Shown: piece by piece, positions 1 to 47,081 of the stretch | How the letters are laid out: the number at the start of each line of letters is the position of its first letter | How positions within the stretch are numbered: the first letter of the stretch is position 1 | Assembly (NCBI GenBank): GCA_014238415.1 | Contig: JABABA010000009.1 | Coordinates: forward strand, 1-64,000 | Direction of reading: 5' to 3' | DNA: 64,000 bases | From: Planctomycetota bacterium | GTDB taxonomy: Bacteria; Planctomycetota; UBA1135; GCA-002686595 | The notes under the pieces: generated by a model | The model's input: only the letters and a program-made list of their open reading frames with translations | Database searches by the model: none | Told to the model about the DNA's origin: nothing | Program-made: the position numbers and the translations under genes

Positions 1-219
1 CGCAAGCTCGAGCAGCGCGGACTTCAACACTTGCTCGATCTCCACGACTCCAACTCGCTCCACTTTCGTCAGCGTCGAACGCAAGTCATGTAGCGTGAAT
101 GCACCCGTCGCCAGGTAGTCTCCTACGATGAATGCAGCACGAGAGAGCACTACCTTACAACTCCTTCGCTCGGCTCCCAGGACGAATAGATCCCCCCTCC
201 GGGAGGTTGGGAGACGCAT
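1..219 (-). CDS. Partial ORF overlapping the RHS 3' end, unknown function
   Basis: On the minus strand an open frame begins with ATG at 219, runs out of the window at position 1 and overlaps the last 65 bases of the RHS gene in the +1 frame. It reads without a stop for 73 codons and includes stretches such as GDLFVLGAERRS and LATGAFTLHDLR, which look like ordinary coding sequence. A second in-frame ATG lies a little upstream, near 252. I do not recognise the product. It may be a separate downstream gene translationally coupled to the RHS gene, or the real C-terminus of the RHS protein displaced by a frameshift. The window edge prevents a decision. Confidence 0.4.
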   Translation of the reverse strand, partial: MRLPTSRRGDLFVLGAERRSCKVVLSRAAFIVGDYLATGAFTLHDLRSTLTKVERVGVVEIEQVLKSALLELA

Positions 220-3200
220 TCTTAGGGTGTGGGTTGCGAGTCCCAAAGGCCGAGTACCCATTCCCCTGGCCATGTCGCCAAAGTCCCGCGGGGTCGGGGC
301 TGAGGTATTCGCCTGATTGTGGATCGTATTGGCGATGGCGGTTGTGGTAGGTGGAGGTTTCATCGTCCCACCAGAGTCCTTGGAAGTGGTAAGGGTTGCC
401 GATGACGGATGAGGTGCGCTCGGTGACGCCATCTGGGGCCAGGATCTGGGCCTCGCCCAGGGCTCCGTAGCGCACGAGTTCCACCACCGACCCTTGTTCA
501 TCGGTCAAGGCTCCAACATGGCCCAGGTCGCTTGCGTGGTACCAATACAGCTTGGGGTCAGGGCCGGGCTGGGTGTGATCGATCAGCACCAGGTGCTCGT
601 CGATGCCACCGGCGCGGACCCATGCGCGGAGAGGAGTGCCGGTGAGGTCAGACTCTTGGGTTACTTCCCAGGTGCCAGAGTAACTGGTGCGGGTGCTCGC
701 CTGGCCCAGGCCAAGATCGATCTTGGCCATGCGCCTTCCTTCCGCATCGAAAAGGTACTGCCAGGCGGCAACTCCCCCAGAGTCGGTGGCCGTGACCAGG
801 CGGCCGCGGGCGTCGAAAGCGAGAGTCTGCCCGTCCCCGCGAGCAGTCAAGGTGCCATCGGGAGCGTAATCGCGCATTTGACCGCCCAAGGAAAGGGTCT
901 GGAGCAGGCCCGTGGGATTGACCAAGGGTGCTAGGTCAATGCCTTCGTCCACGAGACCTATCGTTTTGTCCGCGCCATCGAACTCGAAGCTGGACGCAGG
1001 TATTCCCGTGGGCGCATAGGAGGTCATGCGGCCAAGAGAATCATAGGCCATGGACACGACTCTGTTGCCCAGGTGGGATTCGGTCACGCTGGTGCGCCGA
1101 TGGGTGGGGTCAAAGGATTGGGTCCAGCCAGCAATGGGATTGCTGGTGGACGCATGATCCCAAGTCCAATCCACCGCCCGGCCAAGAGCATCGTAGCCCG
1201 CCCCTGCGCCAGCCAAACTGCCGCTACCTGCGTCATTCGCCATGTCGATCCCGGTCCCGTTTCCATAGTCCGCAGCCAAAAGCCTTGGACCCACATAACC
1301 ATAGCGAGCCAAGGCCAGACCGTCCGAGTCCCGCGTCACGCGAGTGACGCGATCGAGACCGTCAAAGGTCCGGCTGAAACTGGCTCCTGTGGGATGCACG
1401 TCCCGCACCCTACGCCTTGCTCCCGACCAAGTCCAGCGGCTGCTGGACGAAGGGCCATTGCCCACTTGACTGCTCTCCGCAAAACGCCGGTGCAAAGAGT
1501 CGAGCTGAAACGAGACCGTGACCCCTAGGCTGGGGTCCCCGTTATCATCGGTGTGACCCCAGCGGCGGCCAAGGGAGTCCAGCGCATAGGTCCGAGAAGT
1601 GCTGCCCACAATTCCAGGCCCCCTCACAATTGCCTCGGCTTCAAGATGCCCCGATGCATCGCGAGAAAAACTCGTCACGCTGCCATTGGTGGCGCGCCAG
1701 GTGTCCAAGAAACCAGCAGCCGACCAGGACCAACTGGCAAAGCTGTTGTCGGCCCGGGTTTCACGGATGGTGCGCGAAAGTGCATCATGCTGGTAGCTGG
1801 TCTGGTTGCCGTGGTCATCAATCCGTGCGGTAACACGATGTAGATCATCATAGACCGTGCCCAGAGTCACGACTCCGTCCCCTCCGGCTTGGGTCAGGTC
1901 GGCAGTGGATTCATCGGCAGCATAGCCGCTGGCCGAGATCCAGCGGCGCTCGGTGATGATGCGCCCCAAAGAATCGCGCTCCCATTCGGTCAGATTGTCT
2001 TTGGCGTCGCGCACATTGCGCAAGCGCGAGAAGCGGTCCCAAGCGTATTCTTGGCGATTGCCGAGGGCATCGACTTGCGCGATGAGCCGCCCCAAGGTGT
2101 CTCGCTCCAGGACCATATCCCGGGATTCGCTAAAAACACGCTGGGGGTCGGTGGAACGCTCGAGGGACGATTCTCCCATGACCCTGCCGGCCAAATCCCG
2201 TTGAAGGAGTACTTCATTGCCCACAGCATCAATCCTTCGGCGCAATTCATGCACTCCATCGTATTCCCAAACCATCAGATCTGCGTCACTGTCCAGCACC
2301 CCGATCACCCGGCCCAGAGCATCATGGATGGCGATGCTCGACACCCAACCATCGTTGGGCATCAAAGCACCATCGTCCAAAACGGTGGTGGCCGGATCAT
2401 GATCAAACAGGGCTCGATCCGTGCGGTAGGAACGGCCCAGGGCATCATAGTGAAAGCGGCTTTCCGCAAGGGTCTGCACCCCCAAATGGCCGGGAATCGA
2501 GCCACGCACCGTTGTTCCCAATAAATATCCAGCGGCATCATAGGCGTACTCTGTGCGGGCACCGTTGCGAGCATTCACGGCAGAGGGACGGCCATGGCCA
2601 TCCCATTCTGTGCTGCGACTGGCACCGCTCGGATCTATTGTGAGCACGAGTGCTCCGCCGTGATCGATATCAAAACGAGAGACAAATTCCTCGGGCGTAC
2701 CAACTGCACTCACCGACTGGATCGTCAGATTGCGCTCATCCACCTGACGCAAGGAACGCCGGGCGGAGGGCGTTCCTACGGCTTCGCTGCCTCCGATGAG
2801 GTTGCCAACCGAGTCATAGACCAACTGACCCTTGAGGGCCATTCCGGTGGCGTCGGAAACTACTTCCACCAGCCGATCCAAGATGTCATAGCGCAGAGTC
2901 GTGACCTCACCCGCGTCAGCACCATCCGAACCGTCCGGTTGCACACGAACCTCGATGATGCGGTCGTTCATGTCGCGCAACACTATAGTTTCACGCCGCG
3001 CACGGACCAGTCCCAAGGCGCTGCCTGCGCCCTCGATCCTACGTACGATTTGATCCCGTTCGTTGACATGCCAATAGGTCGTGATGCCGCTGGCATCGGT
3101 GATCGCAGTTGGTATTCCACGGGGATGTGCGGGGATAGCGCCGTTGAGTTGCGCCCTGTAGGAGAGGTTGGTGGTGCGTTGCAGAGCCTTGAAGCCGCGG

Positions 3201-5389
3201 CCGCTGTTGCGACTGTTGAGGTCACTCGTATCTTCGATCACCTGACGCAGATACCCGCCGCCCGTACTCGACGCGCCGGGCAAATCCACCACCCCGTCCC
3301 CATCAGGGTCATCGGCGCCAAAGTAGTGGAAGCGCGTCTCGTTCCCTTCCGCATCTCGCCGAGAACTCAACTGCCCGAAATTGTCATAGACATAGGTTTC
3401 TACTGGGGCTTGATTGGGTCCGATCCCCACGAGCTGCGCCTCTGACGGTAGGACTACAGTCGGATACTCCACCCGGATCATTTTCCCGAGGTTCTGTCCC
3501 ACGATGCCGTCCCCATTGATGTCTCCCAGCGAAACGATGCCCAATTGCGTGAAGAGAGTCGCGAGTTCCGAGTGGGTGACCCCCAACCTTTGGGCAACAT
3601 CGCTTGGAAGTGAGGCGAGGTCTTCCATGTAATCCACCTGGATCGAAGTGGTGAAGGCTGCTGGATCTGCACCCGGCTCAAAGCCACGAGGATCGATGAT
3701 TTGAAGCGGCTTGCCGTAAATAGGCTCAAACAGCGTTTCGGTGCGAATCGAGGGCTGCGAGGGGTTGCGCTGGTCTGAGTGTTCGACCCAGGCGATCACA
3801 TCCCCTTGCATCACGCGCGGAACCTGTGCCGCAGGATGGTAGATGATTTCCGTGCGGCCGCCGATCTCATCGATCACCTCAATAGGCATCCCGTCGTTGT
3901 TGTAGCTTGCCGTGCGAGTCCAGCTGGCACGGGGTGCGGTGCCGGGACGTAGCCCTTTTGAAAAGAGAGTCTCGGAAAGAAAAAGTCCGGCGGAGGACAT
4001 CTCGCAGAGGGTTTGGACACCGCGAGGATCAATCACGGTGGTGCGTACCGCCACCAGTCCAGGATCCGGCGTATAACTTTGGGCGACGACCTCGTACTTG
4101 TACCTCCATGTGCCCCCTGCGCCGAGGGGCCAAGCCTCTTTTGGGGCACCGATGGTGTGGCTCTTGACCGTTCCAAAGGTCACGCTCCAAGGATCGTGGT
4201 CCTCATAGGTCCAGCGCAAACGAGGGGGGCCGCCGCTCAAGACTTCGGCAGGAAAAGTGATTTTGGTCAGTGCATGGGTGAGGCGCGGATCGGCGGACCC
4301 GTGGTATCCATAGGTGCGCGACTTGCCCTGGGGAAAATCATTCAAGCCGTCGGTGTTGGTCACGGCAAAGCTCGTCACCCGTACAAGGTTGGCTTGATCG
4401 TCGTAGGTATAGCGCACCTCTCGCCCGGACCAATCGCGCACAACCGTGACCTGCTCGGGCCAGCGAGGATCTGTGTAGTCAAAGTCAATGCGCCTGCCAT
4501 AGGACTCGATGACCGCCTGGATGCGGCCATTGGGCTCGCGCAGAATTTGCAGCATGTTGCCAGCTGGGCTGGTGATGAGCACCAACTGCCCGGTCGTGTG
4601 CTGGACAGGCTGGGTGCTACCCATGGCGAAATGCAGCCGCCCCCCACCACGTCGCTCGACCACGATCATGGGCAGAGGCGAGCCATCGGAACCTGACTGC
4701 CAGTGGGCCGTGTCGAACCTGCCCGCAGTTCCCTCCCAGAGCACGCCTGGCTGAACCGGAACAAAACGATCCTTGTGGCCGTAGGCGTCGAAAACCAATG
4801 CGCCGCCGGGCATCACCTCCACCCTTTGGTCCAAGTTGCACGCCCAGGCGGGGCCAAACATGGAGTTGCTAAACGTGCGCCGGGTGAGATGCCTACGGCT
4901 CAGAGCAAAGTCCGTCACCGCGTCGCGGCCAAAGAGCAACATGTCCACCTCATCGCGCAGCTCTTGGCCGCTGTGCAGCAAAATTTGCTCGGAGCCTAGG
5001 TCCGTGAACGACACCGAGGGATCCGGGCGTGGCGTGGGAACCCCCGTGTCAGCGAAACCCCCATCACCGGCGGGATGGGGCAAGGCGCAAACACCTCCAC
5101 CATTGACTCCCCCGGCGCCCGGCGCCGGATCCCAAGGATGGCCCTTGAGACTCGAACCGGGGGAGGTGGAATAGTCTTCCAGCTTGCAAGCGGCGTTGGT
5201 CAACCCCGTGTCATCGTTAGGGGGACAATCCCCTGACTGGTTGGGGTGGGCGGGCGACGTTATGACGACAGTGTCAATGTGCTTGGGGTTCTGGGCCCGG
5301 GCGGAGGCCGCGATCACCAGGGACCAAAGAAACATGAAGAGCACGGTTTGAGCGACCCTGTGAAAATCTGACTTTTGGAGGTGTTGCAT
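155..5389 (-). CDS. Secreted RHS/YD-repeat protein with DUF6531-like N-terminus
   Basis: The 1744-residue product starts with a signal peptide (hydrophobic VLFMFLWSLVIAASARA, cleavage likely before QNPK). A DUF6531-like segment follows at about 115-200 (FALSRRHLTRRTFSNSMFGPAW), then more than 1000 residues of YD repeats (for example YDNFGQLSSRRDAEGNETRF). The C-terminus has the RHS core hallmark YHNRHRQYDPQSGEYLSPDP. RHS repeats fold into a large beta shell that in known systems encloses a C-terminal toxin. Here only about 43 residues follow the hallmark, so no toxin domain is visible in frame. A dockerin-like DINGDG motif sits near residue 625. The gene stands alone after a long spacer. The role is unknown; a surface or matrix protein is as likely as a toxin carrier. 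Confidence 0.9.
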   Translation of the reverse strand: MQHLQKSDFHRVAQTVLFMFLWSLVIAASARAQNPKHIDTVVITSPAHPNQSGDCPPNDDTGLTNAACKLEDYSTSPGSSLKGHPWDPAPGAGGVNGGGVCALPHPAGDGGFADTGVPTPRPDPSVSFTDLGSEQILLHSGQELRDEVDMLLFGRDAVTDFALSRRHLTRRTFSNSMFGPAWACNLDQRVEVMPGGALVFDAYGHKDRFVPVQPGVLWEGTAGRFDTAHWQSGSDGSPLPMIVVERRGGGRLHFAMGSTQPVQHTTGQLVLITSPAGNMLQILREPNGRIQAVIESYGRRIDFDYTDPRWPEQVTVVRDWSGREVRYTYDDQANLVRVTSFAVTNTDGLNDFPQGKSRTYGYHGSADPRLTHALTKITFPAEVLSGGPPRLRWTYEDHDPWSVTFGTVKSHTIGAPKEAWPLGAGGTWRYKYEVVAQSYTPDPGLVAVRTTVIDPRGVQTLCEMSSAGLFLSETLFSKGLRPGTAPRASWTRTASYNNDGMPIEVIDEIGGRTEIIYHPAAQVPRVMQGDVIAWVEHSDQRNPSQPSIRTETLFEPIYGKPLQIIDPRGFEPGADPAAFTTSIQVDYMEDLASLPSDVAQRLGVTHSELATLFTQLGIVSLGDINGDGIVGQNLGKMIRVEYPTVVLPSEAQLVGIGPNQAPVETYVYDNFGQLSSRRDAEGNETRFHYFGADDPDGDGVVDLPGASSTGGGYLRQVIEDTSDLNSRNSGRGFKALQRTTNLSYRAQLNGAIPAHPRGIPTAITDASGITTYWHVNERDQIVRRIEGAGSALGLVRARRETIVLRDMNDRIIEVRVQPDGSDGADAGEVTTLRYDILDRLVEVVSDATGMALKGQLVYDSVGNLIGGSEAVGTPSARRSLRQVDERNLTIQSVSAVGTPEEFVSRFDIDHGGALVLTIDPSGASRSTEWDGHGRPSAVNARNGARTEYAYDAAGYLLGTTVRGSIPGHLGVQTLAESRFHYDALGRSYRTDRALFDHDPATTVLDDGALMPNDGWVSSIAIHDALGRVIGVLDSDADLMVWEYDGVHELRRRIDAVGNEVLLQRDLAGRVMGESSLERSTDPQRVFSESRDMVLERDTLGRLIAQVDALGNRQEYAWDRFSRLRNVRDAKDNLTEWERDSLGRIITERRWISASGYAADESTADLTQAGGDGVVTLGTVYDDLHRVTARIDDHGNQTSYQHDALSRTIRETRADNSFASWSWSAAGFLDTWRATNGSVTSFSRDASGHLEAEAIVRGPGIVGSTSRTYALDSLGRRWGHTDDNGDPSLGVTVSFQLDSLHRRFAESSQVGNGPSSSSRWTWSGARRRVRDVHPTGASFSRTFDGLDRVTRVTRDSDGLALARYGYVGPRLLAADYGNGTGIDMANDAGSGSLAGAGAGYDALGRAVDWTWDHASTSNPIAGWTQSFDPTHRRTSVTESHLGNRVVSMAYDSLGRMTSYAPTGIPASSFEFDGADKTIGLVDEGIDLAPLVNPTGLLQTLSLGGQMRDYAPDGTLTARGDGQTLAFDARGRLVTATDSGGVAAWQYLFDAEGRRMAKIDLGLGQASTRTSYSGTWEVTQESDLTGTPLRAWVRAGGIDEHLVLIDHTQPGPDPKLYWYHASDLGHVGALTDEQGSVVELVRYGALGEAQILAPDGVTERTSSVIGNPYHFQGLWWDDETSTYHNRHRQYDPQSGEYLSPDPAGLWRHGQGNGYSAFGTRNPHPKNASPNLPEGGSIRPGSRAKEL

Positions 5390-36254: not shown

Positions 36255-37940
36255 ATGACCCGTCATCTCGTCACCAGCGCCCTGCCCTATGCCAACGGCT
36301 CCATTCACCTGGGGCATGTGGCTGGAGCCTACCTGCCCGCTGATCTTTATGTACGCGGCCTGCGCCAGATGGGCGAAGAGGTCCTGTTTGTCTGCGGCGC
36401 AGATGAGCATGGGGTCGCCATCACAATTGGCGCGGAACAAGCGGGGCAAACCTACGACGAGTATGTGGCCCACTGGCGCGAAGGCATCAAACGCACATTC
36501 GACAGCTTGGGCATCGAATTCGACACATGGTCAGGAACCAGCATCTGTCCAGATCACGAAGAGATGACGCAAGAGTTCTTTCGCCAGCTGGATGACCGGG
36601 GCTATTTGATCCGACGTGAGATCGAACAGCTGTACTGCACCAAGGACGAAATGTATCTGGCGGACCGCTATGTGGAGGGCACCTGCTACAGCTGCGGCGC
36701 AGAGAACGCCCGTGGGGATGAGTGTCCCGCCTGTGGAACCTGGATCGAGACTCTGCGGTTGAAGGAACCTCGCTGCAAGCTCTGCGGCGAAGCTCCCCAA
36801 CGACGCAGCACCAGTCACTGGTTCCTGGACCTGCCCTCCCTCAGAGATGCAAAGGTTGCGGATTGGATCAAGGGCCGTGAATGGAAGTCCAATGTCTCGG
36901 CCTTTATCAAGGGCTTGCTGAAGGACACACCCGAACGGGCCATCACCCGGGACATGACCTGGGGTGTACCGGTGCCTGCGGACCGCAGCGCGGGAACCAG
37001 CGGAAAGGTGCTCTATGTTTGGTTTGACGCTCCGATCGGCTACATCAGCTTCACCAAGGAATGGGCTCGCAAGCAGGGGCGCGAAGAGGACTGGAAGCTC
37101 TGGTGGCAGAGCGAGGACACCCAGCTGGTGCACTTCATCGGCAAGGACAACATCCCATTCCACTGCCTGGTCTTTCCCTCCATGTTGTGGGGCACGGGCC
37201 AGGACTACACCCTGCCTCACGCGGTTCCCGCCAACGAGTTCTACCAACTGGCGGGCGGCAAGTTCAGCACCTCAGACGGGCACACCTTTGACCTGGAGGC
37301 GTACCTTGCGGACACGGACGCCGAAGTTGTGCGCTGCTATGTGACCTCAACGCTGCCTGAGACGGCCGATGCGGAGTTCAACGCCAATGACCTGGTGACC
37401 TTCAACAATGCTCAGCTCGCAAGCAACCTGGGCAATCTGGGCTCCCGCGTGCTCAAGTTCATCGCCAAGAACTTCGACGGACGGATTCCTGAATTGGATC
37501 CAGCCCACACAGGGGATCTGGAAAGCCTCCTGTTCGAGTGCTGTGCAGATTGCGAAGACCCGGGCATGGACATCAAGGCCTTCCGCTTCCGCCGCGCCCT
37601 GGAAGATGTGCTGGCCCTGGCCACCGCCGCCAATGTATTCATGCAGCGCTGCGAACCGTGGAAGACCAACAAGACCGACGCGGCTTTGGCCGGCAGCCAA
37701 CTCAACATCCTCTGCGAGTGGCTCTCACTCCTGGCTGCCTGGCTGGCGCCCTTCGCCCCGCACAAAGCCCAGGAGTTGTGGCTGCAACTTGGAGGCGAGG
37801 GTCAGGTCAAGGACGCGGGCTGGCCCAAGGTTCCGGGACCCGACAATCCCGACTGGCGTGCGGGACTCGGCGGCAGGCAACTGGGCGAACTGGGAACCCT
37901 CTTCCCACGCATGGACGCGCTGGTACCAGCGGAGAAGTGA
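36255..37940 (+). CDS. metG: Methionyl-tRNA synthetase
   Basis: The 561-residue class I synthetase has the HIGH-type motif in ALPYANGSIHLGHVAGAYL (about 9-27), the CP insertion with two zinc knuckles (CYSCGAENARGDECPACG and CKLCGEAP) and the KMSKS-type loop as KFSTSDGHTF. The anticodon-binding helix bundle follows (FNNAQLASNLGNLGSRVLKF). It charges tRNA-Met and initiator tRNA. It ends after the bundle, without the C-terminal EMAP/Trbp111-like domain found in many bacteria, which would make it a monomeric form. Start ATG 36255. Confidence 0.96.
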   Translation: MTRHLVTSALPYANGSIHLGHVAGAYLPADLYVRGLRQMGEEVLFVCGADEHGVAITIGAEQAGQTYDEYVAHWREGIKRTFDSLGIEFDTWSGTSICPDHEEMTQEFFRQLDDRGYLIRREIEQLYCTKDEMYLADRYVEGTCYSCGAENARGDECPACGTWIETLRLKEPRCKLCGEAPQRRSTSHWFLDLPSLRDAKVADWIKGREWKSNVSAFIKGLLKDTPERAITRDMTWGVPVPADRSAGTSGKVLYVWFDAPIGYISFTKEWARKQGREEDWKLWWQSEDTQLVHFIGKDNIPFHCLVFPSMLWGTGQDYTLPHAVPANEFYQLAGGKFSTSDGHTFDLEAYLADTDAEVVRCYVTSTLPETADAEFNANDLVTFNNAQLASNLGNLGSRVLKFIAKNFDGRIPELDPAHTGDLESLLFECCADCEDPGMDIKAFRFRRALEDVLALATAANVFMQRCEPWKTNKTDAALAGSQLNILCEWLSLLAAWLAPFAPHKAQELWLQLGGEGQVKDAGWPKVPGPDNPDWRAGLGGRQLGELGTLFPRMDALVPAEK

Positions 37941-38046: not shown

Positions 38047-38316
38047 TTAGACGGAGGCCTTCAGTGCCTTGCCACCGCGAAACCCAACCTTGCGACCTGC
38101 CGCGATGGGCATGGGATCACCAGTCATGGGGTTGCGGCCAACGCGCGCTGGACGCTCACGGACCTCGAAAGTTCCAAAGCCAGTCAGCGTGACGGTTCCA
38201 TCTTCCCTAAGACCCTCCGTTATGCCTTCGAGGACGGTGTCCACGAGGCGTGACGCCTGCAGCCGAGAAACACAAAGTTCCTTGGAGATGACCTCAACGA
38301 GATTGCCTTTGTTCAC
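38047..38316 (-). CDS. HU/IHF-family DNA-binding protein
   Basis: The 89-residue product has the HU fold: helical N-terminus (NLVEVISKELCVSRLQASRL), then GTVTLTGFGTFEVRERPARVGRNPMTGDPM, which contains the DNA-bending beta arm with the Arg-Asn-Pro tip. HU dimers bend and compact DNA. The start codon is GTG (38316), with AAGGA about nine bases upstream. The gene is 21 bases downstream of the H1-like gene on the same strand, so the two nucleoid proteins probably share a transcript. HU and IHF subunits cannot be told apart here. Confidence 0.93.
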   Translation of the reverse strand: MNKGNLVEVISKELCVSRLQASRLVDTVLEGITEGLREDGTVTLTGFGTFEVRERPARVGRNPMTGDPMPIAAGRKVGFRGGKALKASV

Positions 38317-39001: not shown

Positions 39002-39505
39002 TCAGAACAGGTCATCGAGGGCCTTGGAAGCCTGCTCGGAGTAGTTTTGGGCCAGATCATCGTCACCAAGGCCTGCTGCCGGACCGGATTGCTCAAGAAC
39101 TCGTTTGAGATTCTCTGCAGTCTCCTTGGCATAGAAACGCACCAGGCCCAAGTTCGTCTTTGAATCCCAGACCACCGCCAGAAGAGTTCGCAAGCCAACC
39201 GCCGACAACTGAATGCCCTGCTCCTGACCCTGGTGGGAAAGAGAATGAAAGCCTTCTTCCCCCAGCAGCTGCGCAACCTGGTGGGTAGCGGCAAAAGAGC
39301 CCGCGACCAAAGCCGCCAAGGACTCAAGGCTCTCACTGGGAACCTCTCCTCGACGAGTGATCATGTGCCCTTCAGTATCAATCAGCAGGGCACTTCGCGC
39401 TCTGGACAGTTCCAAGAAGCCATCGAGTTCCCGATCAAGGCGTTGCACATCGTCTGCGTAGAAGACCATGCGATCTGCGCGCAGGCGTTCGTTGGGTGTC
39501 TGCAT
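39002..39505 (-). CDS. Roadblock/LC7-domain protein
   Basis: The 167-residue product starts MQTPNERLRADRMVFYADD at 39505, with a strong ribosome site (TAAGGAGAT). The roadblock core is visible at about 20-125: LDGFLELSRARSALLIDTEGHMITRRG, LAALVAGSFAATHQVAQLLG and LLAVVWDSKTNLGLVRFYAKET. A charged helical tail follows. MglB, the GTPase-activating protein of MglA, has the same fold. It is the last gene of the five-gene operon, 11 bases after the GTPase stop, so it is a good candidate for the GTPase regulator. Exact role unknown. Confidence 0.82.
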   Translation of the reverse strand: MQTPNERLRADRMVFYADDVQRLDRELDGFLELSRARSALLIDTEGHMITRRGEVPSESLESLAALVAGSFAATHQVAQLLGEEGFHSLSHQGQEQGIQLSAVGLRTLLAVVWDSKTNLGLVRFYAKETAENLKRVLEQSGPAAGLGDDDLAQNYSEQASKALDDLF

Positions 39506-39516
39506 TGTCGATCTCC

Positions 39517-41067
39517 TTACATGGCCTGAAAGAGAAGGCCACCGAGAACCATTCCGGCTCCCAAGGCAGCAGTAATGCAAGCCACTGCGAGCGCGACTGT
39601 CTTCTTGCTGAAACGCTGCACGGGAGTGGCCGCCACCTGAGCGCGGGGCCGAATGCGAGTTGGTGGGTTCATGTTCGCCACACGCCGAGGCGAAGGAGCA
39701 GGAGTAGGCTGATCAGCAGGGACCTGCATCATGGCCGAGCGCTTTGAAACCGGCGCAGACTCCACCGGAGGAACGAGGGGCTCGAACTTAAGGGCTAGAC
39801 TGCTTGTGGACTGCTGCTCCTGGGCCTGAACCGCAGGAACTTCGGGCATGGACTCCGGCTCAATGGATGAGGCCATGCGAAGAGGCGATGCGGGCGGGTC
39901 TGACTGTTCCATCCCTCCCTGATCCACCTGAGCCTGCACAACCGGATCGCTGCTCGCAGGTACAGGAAACTCCGCTGCCATGGGTGCAGTGGCGGGCGCC
40001 ATGCTGGGAGGCGCCATGCTGGGAGGCGCCATGCTGGGAGGCGCCATGCTGGGACCAGAAGCGGGAGTACGGGGGCCAGTGTCCGCAACGCTATCGCGCG
40101 AGTGCTCAGCCGCAATCCGCGGGCCACTGCCCATGGGACTGGGACCATCGGAAACCAGACGCAGCGGGCTCGATGGCGGAGCGTCAGTACTGGATTGGCT
40201 CGACGGGACCGGTTGACTCGCCGGACTGGAGGGAGTCGGCGGGAAGGGTGGGGGGAAACCTGTTGAACCGGAAGTCGGAGGAGCAAGAGTCGGCTCTTTC
40301 GGTACAGCAAACTCATCATCAACAGCCTCATCCACAGGAGACTCAACAGCCTCAGACGGAGCGGGCACACTGGCCTGAGACGGAGCGGGCACACTGGCCT
40401 GAACCGGAGCGGGCACACGGGCCTGAACCGGGCCTGACACAAGGGGTTCGCTCTTGGTTGGCTCTGTACTACTGTTCACACCGCTGGCCTTGTGCACCGT
40501 ATCAAGCACAAGAGCTGCGAGACTCTTGAGGGTCGGGAAGACTCCTTGACCGGAACTCGCAACCCCTTCAATGGTGGGCACTCCTCCCGGATTCAAGGTC
40601 GCATCGAGCTCCTCCACGGTCAACGCATCCGGCAGGTCACGTTTGTTGTACTGAATGACCATGGGCATCTCGGCCAGGTCCTTGCCGTAGTCCGCCAGGT
40701 TCTCAGCCAAATTCCGCATGGACTCCTGGTTCTCCTCCACCATCGAAGCGGAAGAGTCGGCCACAAAAATCACACCGTCGACTCCTTGCAGGACAAGTTT
40801 CCGCGTACTGTTGTAGTAGACCTGACCAGGCACCGTGTAGATCTGGAATTGGGTGCGCATTCCCGCGACCGTGCCCAGGTCCAAGGGCATGAAATCGAAG
40901 AACAGGGTGCGGTCGCCATCGGTGGAGATGCTGGTCAATTCGCCCCGACTCTGATCCGGTGCGCGCTGATGAATGACCTCCAAGTTGGTCGTCTTGCCGG
41001 ACATGCCGGGGCCGTAGTAGACGATCTTGACCGTCACGCTTTTTTGGGCAAAATTGATCTGAACCAT
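39517..41067 (-). CDS. MglA-type small GTPase with proline-rich linker and C-terminal membrane anchor
   Basis: Residues 1-195 form an MglA-family GTPase: P-loop GPGMSGKTT (19-27), the MglA-specific TVPGQ (78-82) in place of DxxG, and NKRD (141-144). Typical MglA proteins end about there. Here some 290 residues of Pro/Ser/Ala-rich sequence follow, including repeats of VPAPSQAS and APPSM, then a basic patch and a final hydrophobic segment (VALAVACITAALGAGMVLGGLLF, about 490-512). The protein is therefore probably tail-anchored, with the GTPase on a long flexible tether in the cytoplasm. ATG at 41067 overlaps the TGA of the upstream roadblock gene (TGATATG), implying coupling. GTPase family is firm; target is unknown. 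Confidence 0.9.
   Translation of the reverse strand: MVQINFAQKSVTVKIVYYGPGMSGKTTNLEVIHQRAPDQSRGELTSISTDGDRTLFFDFMPLDLGTVAGMRTQFQIYTVPGQVYYNSTRKLVLQGVDGVIFVADSSASMVEENQESMRNLAENLADYGKDLAEMPMVIQYNKRDLPDALTVEELDATLNPGGVPTIEGVASSGQGVFPTLKSLAALVLDTVHKASGVNSSTEPTKSEPLVSGPVQARVPAPVQASVPAPSQASVPAPSEAVESPVDEAVDDEFAVPKEPTLAPPTSGSTGFPPPFPPTPSSPASQPVPSSQSSTDAPPSSPLRLVSDGPSPMGSGPRIAAEHSRDSVADTGPRTPASGPSMAPPSMAPPSMAPPSMAPATAPMAAEFPVPASSDPVVQAQVDQGGMEQSDPPASPLRMASSIEPESMPEVPAVQAQEQQSTSSLALKFEPLVPPVESAPVSKRSAMMQVPADQPTPAPSPRRVANMNPPTRIRPRAQVAATPVQRFSKKTVALAVACITAALGAGMVLGGLLFQAM
39991..40050. repeat. 15-base tandem repeat inside the GTPase gene
   Basis: Three perfect copies of gggaggcgccatgct (40006-40050) follow one degenerate copy (39991-40005). 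On the minus strand each encodes SMAPP. The unit is a multiple of three, so copy number can vary without frameshift and changes linker length. Confidence 0.9.
40358..40429. repeat. 24-base tandem repeat inside the GTPase gene
   Basis: Three near-identical 24-base units (ggagcgggcacactggcctg and four more bases) encode eight-residue repeats around QASVPAPS on the minus strand. As with the 15-base repeat, this lengthens the linker between GTPase and membrane anchor. Confidence 0.85.
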
Positions 41068-41068
41068 A

Positions 41069-41605
41069 TCAGCTTTTTTCTTTCTTGTGGTAGGTGCCCG
41101 TAAGACCAGTGATCGGCCGGGCGGAGTTGTGTTCTTGTGAATTCTGTTCTGTGGGTGCTTCGCTGGGGAGCGCGCCGGTGGGTTCAACGCTGGGCTTGGA
41201 AGAGACATCCATCTCGGAGACCAAAGCGAATTGGCCTTGCCCTAAGCCGCGCAAGAGCCGTGCGATGCGACCAAGCGCTGCCTCCATGGGAACCCGCAGG
41301 TCCTCGGGCAAAGCGCCCGGCTCAAGCCAGACTGCCAGGCAGGCCTGTTCCCCAGGGCAGACCACCAATGTGGCCTGACTGCCCCTCACTACAAGTCTTC
41401 GCGGATCGTCCCAGGACAAGCGTCCGAATGAACCTTCAAGATCACGCACCCAGCCCAGCACCAGGGCACAGGTCGCCTCTTGCTGCAGGTCGTCCTGCCT
41501 CGTGGCGCTGCCCACCAAGGAGTGCACCAAGAGACCATCACGCCCAATCACAAAGGCCTGACGCAGCCCCGGGACCTCGGCCAGTGGGTTCAGTACATGC
41601 TTCAT
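41069..41605 (-). CDS. Roadblock/LC7-domain protein with disordered tail
   Basis: The 178-residue product has a roadblock fold in residues 5-120: LAEVPGLRQAFVIGRDGLLVHSLVG, LQQEATCALVLGWVRDLEGSF, RRLVVRGSQATLVVCPGEQACLAVWL and MEAALGRIARLLRGL. A Ser/Glu-rich tail of about 50 residues follows. Roadblock proteins commonly dimerise and bind small GTPases as regulators or adaptors. Its start overlaps the stop of the upstream TPR-roadblock gene (ATGA), and its stop overlaps the GTPase start, so stoichiometric synthesis with the GTPase is likely. Confidence 0.82.
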   Translation of the reverse strand: MKHVLNPLAEVPGLRQAFVIGRDGLLVHSLVGSATRQDDLQQEATCALVLGWVRDLEGSFGRLSWDDPRRLVVRGSQATLVVCPGEQACLAVWLEPGALPEDLRVPMEAALGRIARLLRGLGQGQFALVSEMDVSSKPSVEPTGALPSEAPTEQNSQEHNSARPITGLTGTYHKKEKS

Positions 41606-42687
41606 GACTTGCCTCCCAACTGTTGTCCAAGATGGGTCAACTGGCCCGTCAACTCATCTGTTGGCTCATGCTCACACCAAACTGTTGCCATCCCGAACTT
41701 GCCTGCGCTCGTCAGCAGACTCCCGTGCTCGCCTTCAACACAGAGCAGGTCCAAGCGACCTAACCCCACGCGAGCAGCAAGCTCTCGGGTCTTGTGAGCA
41801 CTCTCTCGAAATGCCCGCGCCGTGCGATCTGCCGCGGCTCCAGTAAGGCCCTGGACCAACGCGGTACTTCCCTGGTGATAGGTTGCGCAATGAACGCCTT
41901 CTTGACGCGCAATGTTCTTCAGCAATCCGCGCACACTGCCTTTCCGTGCCGGCTGTGAATTTTCGGCAGCGTGATCTTCGACAGGATCTACATCCAGGAC
42001 TCCTCTGCGAGTGCACTCCAGCAAGGCTTGAGCAAACTCGAGCGCATTGTCGCTCTGCTGGGTGGACTCTCGGAAAGCCGCTTCCGCCTCAGGCTCGCCT
42101 GGGCGCAGTTCGAGCAACCTTGCCAAGAGAGTGCGACGCTCTCCATGAGCACCGACCCGACCGCTCAAGGCAATCAAGGTTTCGAGTGGCCGTGGATCAC
42201 GGGGCATGGCCTCGGCCGCACGCTGACCCAGTTCCCAGGCCAGCTGACCGTCCTCACGTACGCCGCCGCCAAAGAACGCGCCCATTGACGCGCAAGATTC
42301 AAGATGTAGTGCCTCTCCGGAGCCCCCAGCCTGACGCCAACGCCGGGCCGCGGCCTGTGCGCGTGCAAAGCGCCCAGACTCCATATGCACCTCGATCAAC
42401 TCGCTCCAAAGAGCCGGCCGAGGCGCCAGCAGCAGGTCCGCTTCGAGTTCACGCACTCGGGCGTCCAAGCGCAACCTTGCCGCCCGACGAGCCATTTGAA
42501 TCAGCTCTGAACTCTCTGGATGAAGGTCGAGGGCCTCGTGACAGATCGCCTCAACCCGACTGGATTCACCACTGACCACCGACTCGTGAGCCAGAGCGAG
42601 GTAATTCTGCACGGAAGGATCAAGAGCTACCCGACGCGCAGCGCTTCGCTGCCTCCTCCGATGAAAGACACGCCCAAGGAGATTCAT
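41602..42687 (-). CDS. TPR protein with roadblock-like C-terminus
   Basis: The 361-residue product has helical TPR-type repeats over residues 20-235 (VQNYLALAHESVVSGESSRVEAICHEALDLHPE; ALWSELIEVHMESGRFARAQAAARRW). The C-terminal 100 residues (VRGLLKNIARQEGVHCATYHQGSTALVQG, RLDLLCVEGEHGSLLTSAGKFGMATVW, TGQLTHLGQQLGG) match the layout of a roadblock domain. No membrane segment is seen. It may be an adaptor that brings partners to the GTPase. The start MNLLGRVFH at 42687 overlaps the upstream stop (ATGA). The roadblock assignment is by pattern and is less sure than for the two smaller proteins. Confidence 0.7.
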   Translation of the reverse strand: MNLLGRVFHRRRQRSAARRVALDPSVQNYLALAHESVVSGESSRVEAICHEALDLHPESSELIQMARRAARLRLDARVRELEADLLLAPRPALWSELIEVHMESGRFARAQAAARRWRQAGGSGEALHLESCASMGAFFGGGVREDGQLAWELGQRAAEAMPRDPRPLETLIALSGRVGAHGERRTLLARLLELRPGEPEAEAAFRESTQQSDNALEFAQALLECTRRGVLDVDPVEDHAAENSQPARKGSVRGLLKNIARQEGVHCATYHQGSTALVQGLTGAAADRTARAFRESAHKTRELAARVGLGRLDLLCVEGEHGSLLTSAGKFGMATVWCEHEPTDELTGQLTHLGQQLGGKS

Positions 42688-43913
42688 AGCCCTGCCTCCT
42701 GCTCCTGGGCCAAGTGCTGGGAGAGGGCCTCGTGATCCACACGTATCTGTGGCAGGTGCTCCCAACCCTCAGGCGCCTTGTCAAGGGCCTCCCCAAAAGC
42801 GGCCAGGGCCGCCTTGAAGTCTCCGCGCTCTGCGTGGGTCAGACCTCGCACACGAGCAGCTTCGGCCTGGGCCAACTGCAGTTGCTCCGCCAACTCTGCT
42901 GCAATTTGTTCTTCACGCTCCAGACGCTGGACCTCACGCATTTGCCAATGAATACGATCCTGCTCCTCACGCACCTTGAGCGAACCAGTCCAAACAGGCC
43001 GCGTCGCACTCAGATCTTGAAGCGCCTCGAGCCGCGCCGCCATCATCTGAAGATTGGAACCCGAAACTGAGGGCAGGTTCGCGTAGCGACGGGCTGCCTC
43101 CCTGTTCCAGGCCACGCCCATTGTAACCAGGAAACACAGACCTGAAAGCCCAAGCACAAGCCGCACTCCACGTCGCTTGCGACGCTCGCGCTCCACCTCC
43201 CCATAGCGCAGATCACGAATCATGCGCGCCACATCCCGGCGGGTGCGATCCAAGAGCAGGACCTCCTGCAACCAAGGGATCGCCTCACTCACACGACCTC
43301 CATTTACTGCATCGTCTGCCCGAGCCAGGTAGCGTTCTACCAATTCCGCGGTGTTGCCATTGCGCCGCATGAGGCCCGCAAGTTCCTGATCCACGGTACG
43401 GTCAAGGGGCATGTGTCCGGCCAAGAACTCCAAGAGCGCCTGGGCTCGTTCCACATCGCCGGAACGCTCAAGCAACACAGCGAGCCGTCGACCCTCCACC
43501 GCCAGGGAGATGCGCGCTTCACTCAGCACGTCAGGGTGTGCCAGGCCAAGGATCACCAACGCCTCCAGGAGGCGCATGTTGGCTGGATCCTCGCTCAAAT
43601 GATCGAGCAGAGCCTGGCCAAAGGCGCGAGCTGTGCGGCGGTTAAAATCCGAAGCCGCAGACTCCATCATGGAACGCAAGCCATCTGCGTCCAGTTCGTG
43701 GTCCGGCCCGCCGGTAATCGCCTGCACGGCATCATCAACGTAGGTCTTGCCGCCTTGCAGCGGGTCGTTTTTGGATTCTTGAGGCAATGGACTTTTGGCG
43801 CTGGAGCGGGGGGTAAAAAGAGCTCCCCCATGTCTCCATCCTTCGGGTCTCCTGACGCCTGACCTGAAATCGAAACCGGGCGGGTCTCTCAGAAGCGAAT
43901 CCAGAGAGCCCAT
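42684..43913 (-). CDS. TPR membrane protein, first gene of the GTPase operon
   Basis: The 409-residue product is helical, with TPR-like repeats before (ARAFGQALLDHLSEDPANMRLLEALV; VERAQALLEFLAGHMPLD; RVSEAIPWLQEVLLLDRT) and after (ARVRGLTHAERGDFKAALAAFGEALDKAP) a single transmembrane segment (VRLVLGLSGLCFLVTMGVAW, about 255-275) and a coiled coil (EEQIAAELAEQLQLAQAEAARV). The N-terminal part is cytoplasmic if the basic KRRG patch before the segment obeys the positive-inside rule. ATG at 43913 lies 38 bases beyond the terminator of the upstream gene, so the operon promoter should lie in that short gap or the upstream transcript must read through. Confidence 0.75.
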   Translation of the reverse strand: MGSLDSLLRDPPGFDFRSGVRRPEGWRHGGALFTPRSSAKSPLPQESKNDPLQGGKTYVDDAVQAITGGPDHELDADGLRSMMESAASDFNRRTARAFGQALLDHLSEDPANMRLLEALVILGLAHPDVLSEARISLAVEGRRLAVLLERSGDVERAQALLEFLAGHMPLDRTVDQELAGLMRRNGNTAELVERYLARADDAVNGGRVSEAIPWLQEVLLLDRTRRDVARMIRDLRYGEVERERRKRRGVRLVLGLSGLCFLVTMGVAWNREAARRYANLPSVSGSNLQMMAARLEALQDLSATRPVWTGSLKVREEQDRIHWQMREVQRLEREEQIAAELAEQLQLAQAEAARVRGLTHAERGDFKAALAAFGEALDKAPEGWEHLPQIRVDHEALSQHLAQEQEAGL

Positions 43914-44029: not shown

Positions 44030-45607
44030 CTAGAAAATCAGCGGGTCCATGACATACTCACCCAGCAAGGTGCCACCCCCATGGCGGAAGGCCGCCTGCA
44101 CCGCGAGAGCAGTTCCAACCAGGGCCGGGTCCGAAGGAATGGCGAACTGATGGTCGGCAATGCCATCGATATCCGTTGCTGAGGGCAAAATCGAAAGAGT
44201 GGAGCGGTCAAGGTGCAGGAGTCCAACCACCCCGGGTACAGCCGATGCATCAGCACGCTGTCCCACGAGCAGTAGGGAGATCAAAGCTCCCTCCTTCTTG
44301 GTGGAGAACGAAGCCACGCCGCCAATGGTCATGGGGTTGTTTTGACGTAGATCATTCTCGCCCGTATCGAAGAGCCGGATGCCCCCCGTTGTGCCGAAAG
44401 TGCTGGCGTGTACATCCTTGTGAGCCACCACAATGCTGGTTCCCGTCTCATCCAGGTCCAACCCCGTGACGCTGCCCGGTACATCGATTTCCCATACGGG
44501 CTGAGTTGCCCCCGCCTCCAGCAAGATCACCTCGGGTGAGAAGCCATCGCCCCAGGAACCAAATGCTGCCCGGGATCCATCAGGAGTCACCCGAGCCACG
44601 CGTGGAAGATTCTGACGGGCGCCAAGGCCACCTGATTGTTCATGCTGTGCCACCAGCATGGCATTGCTACGCAGTTCATAGCGTGCCCAAGTACCGGTTG
44701 TGTGACGCCACCAGGCAACGGCCATGATCTCTCCGTCTGCAGAGAGATCCAAGGCGGTGACCACATCGGTCTGAGAGCGGGTCAATGTAATTACCAGGCC
44801 CCAACCACTGGATCCCTGCTGCAGGACAACCAACTGACCTACGGAACCCACCGCGACCCTGTTGCCATCACCGGCCACGGCGATTGCGCTGGGCGCGGCG
44901 TTGAGAGCCTGCTGGTGCAGAATCTGACCATTCCCATTAAGGATGTAGAGATCCAACCCAGCCGCCAGGACGATGATGGAACCGTCAGAACTCACCTTGA
45001 GGCTGGACAGTGCCAAACCAGGCAGATCTTGGCCGCTCAGGAGCGCTCCATTGCTGCCATCAAGCAACTCCAAGCGAACGGAACTCGATGCGCTCTCAAA
45101 AGCCGCGACAACCACCAGGCTGCCCGTCTCATCAGTCGCAATCTGCGCCGCAGAGTTGACCAGAGGTGCAATGGTGTGATTCCAATCAATCGAGAAGGTG
45201 CCCGTGCGCGCTGCGTTCACGGGGGTGTGACGGGTGATGTGAGTGGCCCTCTGATAGATGTTCGGGGCAGCCTCCTGCACAAGACCAAAGACCACATCGC
45301 TCTTGGGAGGCGCAACCGTACGGCTGAAGAGAGCATTGGCGGGCGAGGTCGTGTCCAGGAATCGGGCAGGCCCGGCCTGATCGCGGGGTACATCGAGCAC
45401 CATCCACTGGGGGTTCTGCCCCTCAGCCCCGGCCCAGACCAGATTGTTTTCGGCACAAAAGTGCACATCCCGAGGGATCCAGGCCTCGTTGCTTGCGGGA
45501 ACGTGTCCCCAACGCAGGCTGTGTTCAAACGAATTGTTGACCTGGGCGCTGGCCCCAGCGGTCAAACAGAGAAAGAGAGTGAAAATGAGTTTCTGCGCGG
45601 TGTTCAT
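44030..45607 (-). CDS. Secreted beta-propeller-like (WD40/YVTN-type) protein
   Basis: The 525-residue product starts MNTAQKLIFTLFLCLTAGASAQ, a signal peptide. The remainder shows periodic blade-like repeats: SLKVSSDGSIIVLAAGLDLYILNGNGQ, AIAVAGDGNRVAVGSVGQLVVL, TALDLSADGEIMAVAWW, RVTPDGSRAAFGSW and GLDLDETGTSIVVAHKDV, each with the D-G-x-x-hydrophobic pattern of WD40/YVTN propellers. There is no catalytic motif, so an extracellular or periplasmic binding role is likely. It ends with a T-tract terminator and is divergent from the glycine riboswitch and gcvT. The in-frame extension to 45847 runs over the riboswitch region and is not used. Confidence 0.82.
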   Translation of the reverse strand: MNTAQKLIFTLFLCLTAGASAQVNNSFEHSLRWGHVPASNEAWIPRDVHFCAENNLVWAGAEGQNPQWMVLDVPRDQAGPARFLDTTSPANALFSRTVAPPKSDVVFGLVQEAAPNIYQRATHITRHTPVNAARTGTFSIDWNHTIAPLVNSAAQIATDETGSLVVVAAFESASSSVRLELLDGSNGALLSGQDLPGLALSSLKVSSDGSIIVLAAGLDLYILNGNGQILHQQALNAAPSAIAVAGDGNRVAVGSVGQLVVLQQGSSGWGLVITLTRSQTDVVTALDLSADGEIMAVAWWRHTTGTWARYELRSNAMLVAQHEQSGGLGARQNLPRVARVTPDGSRAAFGSWGDGFSPEVILLEAGATQPVWEIDVPGSVTGLDLDETGTSIVVAHKDVHASTFGTTGGIRLFDTGENDLRQNNPMTIGGVASFSTKKEGALISLLLVGQRADASAVPGVVGLLHLDRSTLSILPSATDIDGIADHQFAIPSDPALVGTALAVQAAFRHGGGTLLGEYVMDPLIF

Positions 45608-45986: not shown

Positions 45987-47081
45987 ATGCAGCAGACACC
46001 CCTTCATTCGGTCCATGAACGCCTTGGTGCGCGCATGGTTGAATTCGGTGGCTGGCACATGCCCGTGCAATACGGCCCAATCCTGGACGAGGTGCGCTGC
46101 GTTCGCGAGAAGGTCGGCCTGTTTGATCTCTCCCACATGGGACGATTTCGTCTGACAGGTGCAGATCGAATAAGTGCCCTCGACAAGATCGTGACCACCT
46201 TTGTGGGCCGTATTCCCGTGGACTCAATTCGCTATGGACTGATCTGCCAGGAAGACGGTGGTGCTCTCGACGACATTCTGGTCTACCGCGGCGAAGAGGA
46301 TGTGTTCCTGGTGGTCAACGCCTCGAACACTGAACGCGATATGGCCTGGCTGAATGAACACCTGGCCGGGGCCAACGTAAGTCTTGAAGACCAAACCGAC
46401 GAACTGGCTATGCTGGCCCTGCAAGGACAGGATTCGGTAGCAACCCTGCAAACGGTTGTGGAAGACCTCGACCTCTTGACCATCGGTTACTACAAGTCTG
46501 GCTTCGGGACACTATGCGGCCTGCCCAACGTACGCGTAAGCCGCACGGGCTACACCGGCGAAGATGGGTTTGAAATCTACTTCGACAGCGGGGAGTCCGA
46601 ACGCGTCTGGAATGCGCTGATGGAAGCCGGCGCGCAGTACGGCCTCAAGCCCATCGGCTTGGGAGCCCGGGACACCTTGCGCCTGGAAGCGGGAATGTCC
46701 CTCTATGGGCATGAGATCAACGAGACCCGCAACCCTATCGAGGCGGGTCTCTCCTTTGGGGTCTCCTTTCACGAGGACAAGGGCGATTGGATCGGCCGTG
46801 ATGCCCTGGCCCGAATCAAAGCCAACCCCACCAATAAACTGGTAGGCGTATCAACGGACGGCAAACGCGCTCCCCGTGAGGGCTACCCGGTGATGAGCGG
46901 GGATGAGCAGATTGGCGTGATTTGTTCCGGCGCCATCTCCCCCACACTTTCCAAGAACATCGGCACGGCCTATGTTCCCCTAGCCTTCAGCGAAGCGGGA
47001 ACCAGAGTCCAAATGGATCTGCGCGGCAAACGCCAGGACCTGACCGTGACCGACCTTCCTTTCTACTCCCGAAAACGTTAG
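45987..47081 (+). CDS. gcvT: Glycine cleavage system T protein (aminomethyltransferase)
   Basis: The 364-residue enzyme moves the aminomethyl group from lipoylated H protein to tetrahydrofolate, releasing ammonia. Family motifs include MVEFGGWHMPVQYG, VGLFDLSHMGRFRLTG, YGLICQEDGGALDDILVYR, GYTGEDGFEIYF and LGARDTLRLEAGMSLYGHE, the last with the folate-site residues. It heads an operon with gcvH 18 bases downstream and a lipoate ligase after that, all under the glycine riboswitch. No gcvP is in the window. Start ATG 45987. Confidence 0.96.
   Translation: MQQTPLHSVHERLGARMVEFGGWHMPVQYGPILDEVRCVREKVGLFDLSHMGRFRLTGADRISALDKIVTTFVGRIPVDSIRYGLICQEDGGALDDILVYRGEEDVFLVVNASNTERDMAWLNEHLAGANVSLEDQTDELAMLALQGQDSVATLQTVVEDLDLLTIGYYKSGFGTLCGLPNVRVSRTGYTGEDGFEIYFDSGESERVWNALMEAGAQYGLKPIGLGARDTLRLEAGMSLYGHEINETRNPIEAGLSFGVSFHEDKGDWIGRDALARIKANPTNKLVGVSTDGKRAPREGYPVMSGDEQIGVICSGAISPTLSKNIGTAYVPLAFSEAGTRVQMDLRGKRQDLTVTDLPFYSRKR

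Follow-up and report, generated by a model that had tools for sequence, protein, structure and literature searches.

Characterised bacterial MglA proteins are small GTPases without a membrane anchor, and their cycling between the cell poles sets polarity. How would a bacterium use an MglA that carries a membrane helix of its own and is encoded together with roadblock and TPR proteins? This question is raised by an operon in a 64,000-nucleotide stretch of planctomycete DNA, called the window below. A preliminary description, made from the DNA letters alone, had taken the operon for a membrane-tethered GTPase switch with dedicated regulators and TPR adaptors. The conserved gene order, the roadblock matches and the tether described in the following support this reading.

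A five-gene operon around a putative tail-anchored MglA

Five open reading frames on the minus strand occupy positions 39002-43913 of the window, and their order, strand and tight packing proved to be real. Their predicted products are a TPR protein that has a single membrane segment (G1, 409 aa, 42684-43913), a TPR protein with a C-terminal roadblock-fold domain (G2, 361 aa, 41602-42687), a Roadblock/LC7 protein with a C-terminal extension (G3, 178 aa, 41069-41605), an MglA GTPase that carries a linker and, at its C-terminus, a membrane anchor (G4, 516 aa, 39517-41067), and MglB (G5, 167 aa, 39002-39505). Two overlaps of the form ATGA (42684-42687 and 41602-41605) and the 11-base gap at 39506-39516 were found as first described, and a TGATATG motif is present as well, at 41065-41071, two bases off the position originally given for it (41067-41073). 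Profile searches bore out the TPR, roadblock and MglA assignments, and both a second MglA and a further Robl_LC7 protein were sought and not found beyond the operon in the source genome, which is 89% complete.

Residues 1-196 of G4 (40480-41067) form a Group 1 MglA domain with the motifs GPGMSGKT, DGDRT with the intrinsic Arg53, TVPGQ and NKRD, and residues 2-191 matched T. thermophilus MglA (3t12) with an E value of 6.5e-70 in a profile search. The Group 1 motifs (P-loop GxxxxGKT, intrinsic arginine before the G2-motif threonine, TVPGQ, and NKxD) are intact in 101 of 101 aligned MglA sequences, all of which keep Gly21, Lys25, Arg53, Thr54, TVPGQ, and NKRD, the residues that mark Group 1 MglA (PMC4316618). 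The census by Wuichet and Sogaard-Andersen (2014) built its groups from proteins no longer than 240 aa and does not list Planctomycetes for Group 1 (PMC4316618); this length limit may be why membrane-anchored MglA was missed. With 516 aa, a linker and a helix, G4 fails the single-domain small-GTPase criterion of that census, and we regard it as a long variant of Group 1 MglA because the GTPase domain itself is canonical. A further criterion, the presence of MglB within four genes of MglA, is fulfilled, as the two genes are direct neighbours both in the window and in its relatives.

After the GTPase domain come a linker rich in Pro, Ser and Ala and containing SMAPP repeats in tandem (39598-40479), delimited from the sequence and its homologs, and a 23-residue hydrophobic helix (39529-39597) with only 3 residues after it, as in a tail anchor. 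Many contigs break within or just past the linker. Of the MglA sequences, 84 are not truncated by a contig end; 79 of these have a membrane helix at the C-terminus, and the linker of the untruncated homologs that end in the helix varies from 76 to 339 residues (median, 186). The tether first noticed in the window is thus conserved well beyond it. The hydrophobic stretch could still be a chance or assembly feature and G4 effectively soluble, as the tails of two homologs (L083 and L102) look frame-shifted and three more lack the helix; two of these three (L166 and L169) have a basic, possibly amphipathic C-terminal stretch instead, and L161 has neither. Against this stands the C-terminal position of the helix in so many homologs although the linker changes fast, and we consider a soluble G4 extremely improbable. 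That G4 joins a Group 1 MglA GTPase domain, through a long and flexible linker, to a membrane helix at its end has strong support from the sequence.

The roadblock matches of the preliminary description also held. G5 scored 43 bits against Robl_LC7 (cut-off, 23) and matched solved MglB structures with E values of 1e-18 to 1e-19 in a profile search; its score against the NCBIfam MglB equivalog NF052242 (97.5 bits, E 8e-28) is below the 200-bit cut-off of the model. These matches strongly support the assignment of G5 as MglB, and its GAP activity on G4 is inferred. G3 exceeds the Pfam cut-off for Robl_LC7 (26.5 vs 23 bits), a family matched by 34 of 39 G3 homologs, and matched a PDB roadblock profile with an E value of 8.6e-13. 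G2 has an N-terminal TPR superhelix with TPR profile matches and a putative roadblock-fold domain at residues 252-356 (41620-41934). Robl_LC7 was matched by 10 of 49 G2 homologs, and the window G2 alone did not reach the Pfam cut-off; Foldseek gave TPR proteins only among the matches listed. Alignment of the G2 C-terminus with G3 and with MglB by hhalign was weak, so the fold was settled by AF2, which models this region in the order a-bb-a-bbb-a, the roadblock topology (mean pLDDT 90.3). There is strong support from the sequences for the view that G2 and G3 are further roadblock-fold proteins beside MglB. A G2 homolog in L166 (5966-7552) has an FHA domain (E 1e-14) between its TPR and roadblock parts (Robl_LC7, 27 bits), which suggests a phospho-threonine input.

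Conservation of the operon and of its extracytoplasmic side

A survey of 61 relatives found MglA in 50. The 80 best loci, taken from the best-matching genomes of the collection, yielded G1 in 76, G2 in 77, G3 in 75, G4 in 80, and G5 in 66. The gene order is kept in 79 of them, the exception being a spurious G5 cross-match at a contig end, and missing genes are at contig ends except in L136, L140, and three loci with G3 undetected. L136 and L140, which keep G1, MglA, and MglB and lack G2 and G3, provide a natural test of whether the latter two are dispensable together. Elsewhere in the phylum, most of 20 loci in other families have the operon too; a long form of G1 comes after G5 in L161, L172, and L173, and G2 and G3 were not found in L173. 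Iterated G2 and G3 profiles of this survey drifted onto overlapping frames and onto each other, and the counts given for the 80 loci are from rebuilt profiles. The five-gene order thus recurs across planctomycete genomes, and its presence together with the anchor in dozens of genomes rules out an artefact of a single assembly.

Synteny extends to an HU-like gene (38047-38316) next to the operon in 33 loci and to metG (36255-37940) in 46; on the other side of the operon, gcvT (45987-47081) is found in 24 loci. The window also encodes a 1744-aa protein (155-5389) that looks RHS/YD-repeat-like, a judgement made from its sequence only. Second MglA paralogs of genomes G141 and G146 (L181 and L182) are fused to protein-kinase domains in open frames of 830-1326 aa (Pkinase E 2e-12 in L181 and 4e-50 in L182). 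In G106, a genome of 9.5 Mb on a single contig that gave 11 MglA matches, one MglA (L183:1246-4095) is fused with pentapeptide repeats and with a channel domain, Ion_trans_2.

G1 gave TPR profile matches and has a single membrane helix (43107-43160) after KRR-type basic residues, seen in the sequence and the alignment; by the positive-inside rule its N-terminus is predicted to be cytoplasmic. The start assigned to G1, at 43913, is uncertain, as homologs are conserved only from about residue 57 on. G1 proteins of other families have 1050-1300 aa and contain DUF4388 (PATAN), TPRs, a membrane helix, PEGA where detected, and a PQQ/BamB-type propeller. The window G1 matches only the middle of the long-G1 profile (positions 330-639, E 3.6e-33), and we amend the preliminary description accordingly: this protein is a shortened form of a receptor-like scaffold. 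The same genome encodes, at an unlinked locus (G000:C11:5570-8683, L185), a 1038-aa DUF4388-TPR-membrane-propeller protein that matches the long-G1 profile with an E value of 2.6e-30. Orthologs of it are present in 19 of 19 sampled genomes of the window's family, and none were found elsewhere in the order, bar one weak partial match. Loss of the PATAN receptor in the window's lineage is ruled out by this full-architecture protein.

A minus-strand gene that ends 116 bases before G1 (44030-45607) encodes a 525-aa protein with a signal-peptide-like N-terminus, predicted to be a secreted beta-propeller. Its AF2 model is all-beta (pLDDT 88.6, pTM 0.88) and matched WD40/YVTN propellers in Foldseek (E 1e-13). 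Such a gene was detected upstream of the short G1 in 37 loci and of the long G1 in 0 of 21, and it is probably the first gene of the unit. In several relatives a ~1200-aa lipoprotein with Big_5 Ig-like domains, absent from the window, is encoded between the secreted propeller and G1; L151:633-4139 and L140:2419-6084 are such large lipoprotein-like proteins. Because of the short G1, the unlinked full-length protein, and the secreted propeller upstream, it seems that in the window's family the extracytoplasmic parts of the system have been rearranged, with the order of events unresolved.

Probable association with type IV pili and possible alternative outputs

A link to motility or polarity had initially been considered on account of a pilT gene in the window. 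We dropped pilT as evidence: PilT-family matches are present in 61 of 61 relatives and are uninformative because they also occur in relatives without MglA. Support for the link itself came at the genome scale, from the strong co-occurrence of MglA with canonical PilM. Within 292 genomes of the phylum, both are present in 109, MglA only in 16, PilM only in 12, and neither in 155; by family (77 families), the corresponding numbers are 40, 2, 6, and 29. Family f5 lacks both in 7 of 7 genomes of a first sample and 12 of 12 of a second. In family f37 both are present in G166 and neither in the others, and in family f14 both are present in G140 and G193, while G066, G112, and G154 are without canonical PilM and have only weak or paralogous MglA matches. 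The threshold for canonical PilM (E <= 1e-46) was set after inspection of the data, the tables were transcribed by hand, and phylogeny was left uncorrected. Given the post-hoc cut, the hand lists, and p-values inflated by ancestry, the association is a lead with a few independent contrasts and not proof. No pilus gene was seen adjoining the operon. A flagellar role was ruled out, as MglA is present in genomes of families f1-f4 with FliM absent or weak and no co-occurrence pattern emerged.

In M. xanthus, MglA-GTP stimulates pili with the TPR protein SgmX (PMC7519303), and PATAN domains have been tied to the pilus machinery of cyanobacteria (PMC7690835). We think that the locus probably encodes an MglA/MglB switch that is tethered to the membrane and coupled to a scaffold spanning it, with type IVa pili as the most likely target of its control. 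No experiment or complex prediction stands behind this reading, and the interactions, complex formation, localisation, and pilus output of the operon are inferred only. MglA-GTP would be held at the membrane and not in a cytosolic pool, and would thereby license pilus machines locally, with G5 as the GAP of G4. By analogy with MglC, RomX/RomY, and the roadblock dimers of Ragulator, G3 and the C-terminal domain of G2 might regulate or dock MglA or act in exchange. The TPRs of G1 and G2 could carry effector contacts, as those of SgmX would suggest, and G1 may pass an envelope signal across the membrane by way of the beta-propeller. A more specific proposal, which we offer only tentatively and hold to be rather unlikely, is a receptor-coupled GTPase complex with a Ragulator-like layout, in which roadblock adaptors keep the tail-anchored Ras-like GTPase near a transmembrane PATAN-TPR-propeller receptor and envelope or surface signals lead to local pilus activity or to shape change in shapeshifting planctomycetes.

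Alternatively, the same tethered switch could act on cell shape, envelope organisation, or amoeba-like movement, and the PilM link would reflect shared lifestyle or ancestry. The locus is carried by strains Poly30 and Pla86 (L082 and L151), which we take to be members of the Saltatorellus clade, and the complete Pla86 genome is in the window's family. This clade is shapeshifting (PMC11481906). The extracytoplasmic propellers and large Ig-like lipoproteins that flank the operon in relatives would suit such an output, as would the six families with PilM and without MglA. However, MglA tracks canonical PilM across the 77 families and within mixed families, and the operon is also present in many families not known to shapeshift. 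An output of this kind remains possible, if somewhat unlikely.

Comparison with known systems and implications

The domains and catalysis of MglA and MglB are known; the tether and the operon are new. In common with the Group 1 MglA/MglB systems of M. xanthus and Thermus (PMC4316618), the operon has the GTPase motifs, including the intrinsic Arg finger beside Thr, TVPGQ, and NKxD, and encodes MglB adjacent to MglA. A second MglB occurs in a few Group 1 systems (PMC4316618). Known Group 1 MglA proteins are single-domain, whereas the planctomycete proteins have a linker of ~76-339 aa and a membrane anchor, and the operon adds two further proteins of roadblock fold and a TPR scaffold that crosses the membrane. 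SgmX of M. xanthus and Bd2492 of Bdellovibrio likewise are TPR proteins that work with MglA and are linked to type IV pili, but no membrane segment or roadblock domain has been reported for them, whereas G1 is predicted to be transmembrane and G2 to have a domain of roadblock fold, and the genes of both share an operon with that of MglA. The canonical GTPase domain, the MglB, and the TPR nature of these known effectors (PMC7519303, PMC3983030) would all be compatible with an MglA polarity oscillator of the conventional kind, in which the tail of MglA does no more than slow diffusion and G1 and G2 are ordinary TPR effectors. Yet known MglA-family proteins have ~176-239 aa (PMC4316618) and SgmX is predicted to be cytoplasmic (PMC7519303), while here an anchor and a transmembrane scaffold are conserved across families; we judge the oscillator improbable.

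The actinobacterial conservons (CvnA-D) resemble the planctomycete operon in an MglA-type GTPase and a roadblock protein encoded in one operon and in a membrane-associated complex, the latter being inferred here. They differ in that the planctomycete operon is without a histidine kinase, its GTPase has Group 1 and not Group 2 motifs, and its putative receptor is of the PATAN/TPR/propeller type. No CvnA histidine kinase was found among the operon products, and membership in the conservons was ruled out for lack of a kinase in the operon. The eukaryotic Ragulator-Rag system also provides a small GTPase with several roadblock proteins and a scaffold anchored in the membrane, but the GTPase family and the anchoring differ and the likeness is an analogy only. 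No report of the operon or of a membrane-anchored MglA was found in the open-licence papers searched, in line with the preliminary description, which knew of no such described system.

If the preferred reading of a tethered switch is true, a conserved, membrane-built MglA with a transmembrane partner would represent a second means by which bacteria position a Ras-like switch, one comparable to the lipid-anchored small GTPases of eukaryotes. In a phylum with unusual cell biology, including one shapeshifting clade, the operon would then be a concrete handle on surface movement.
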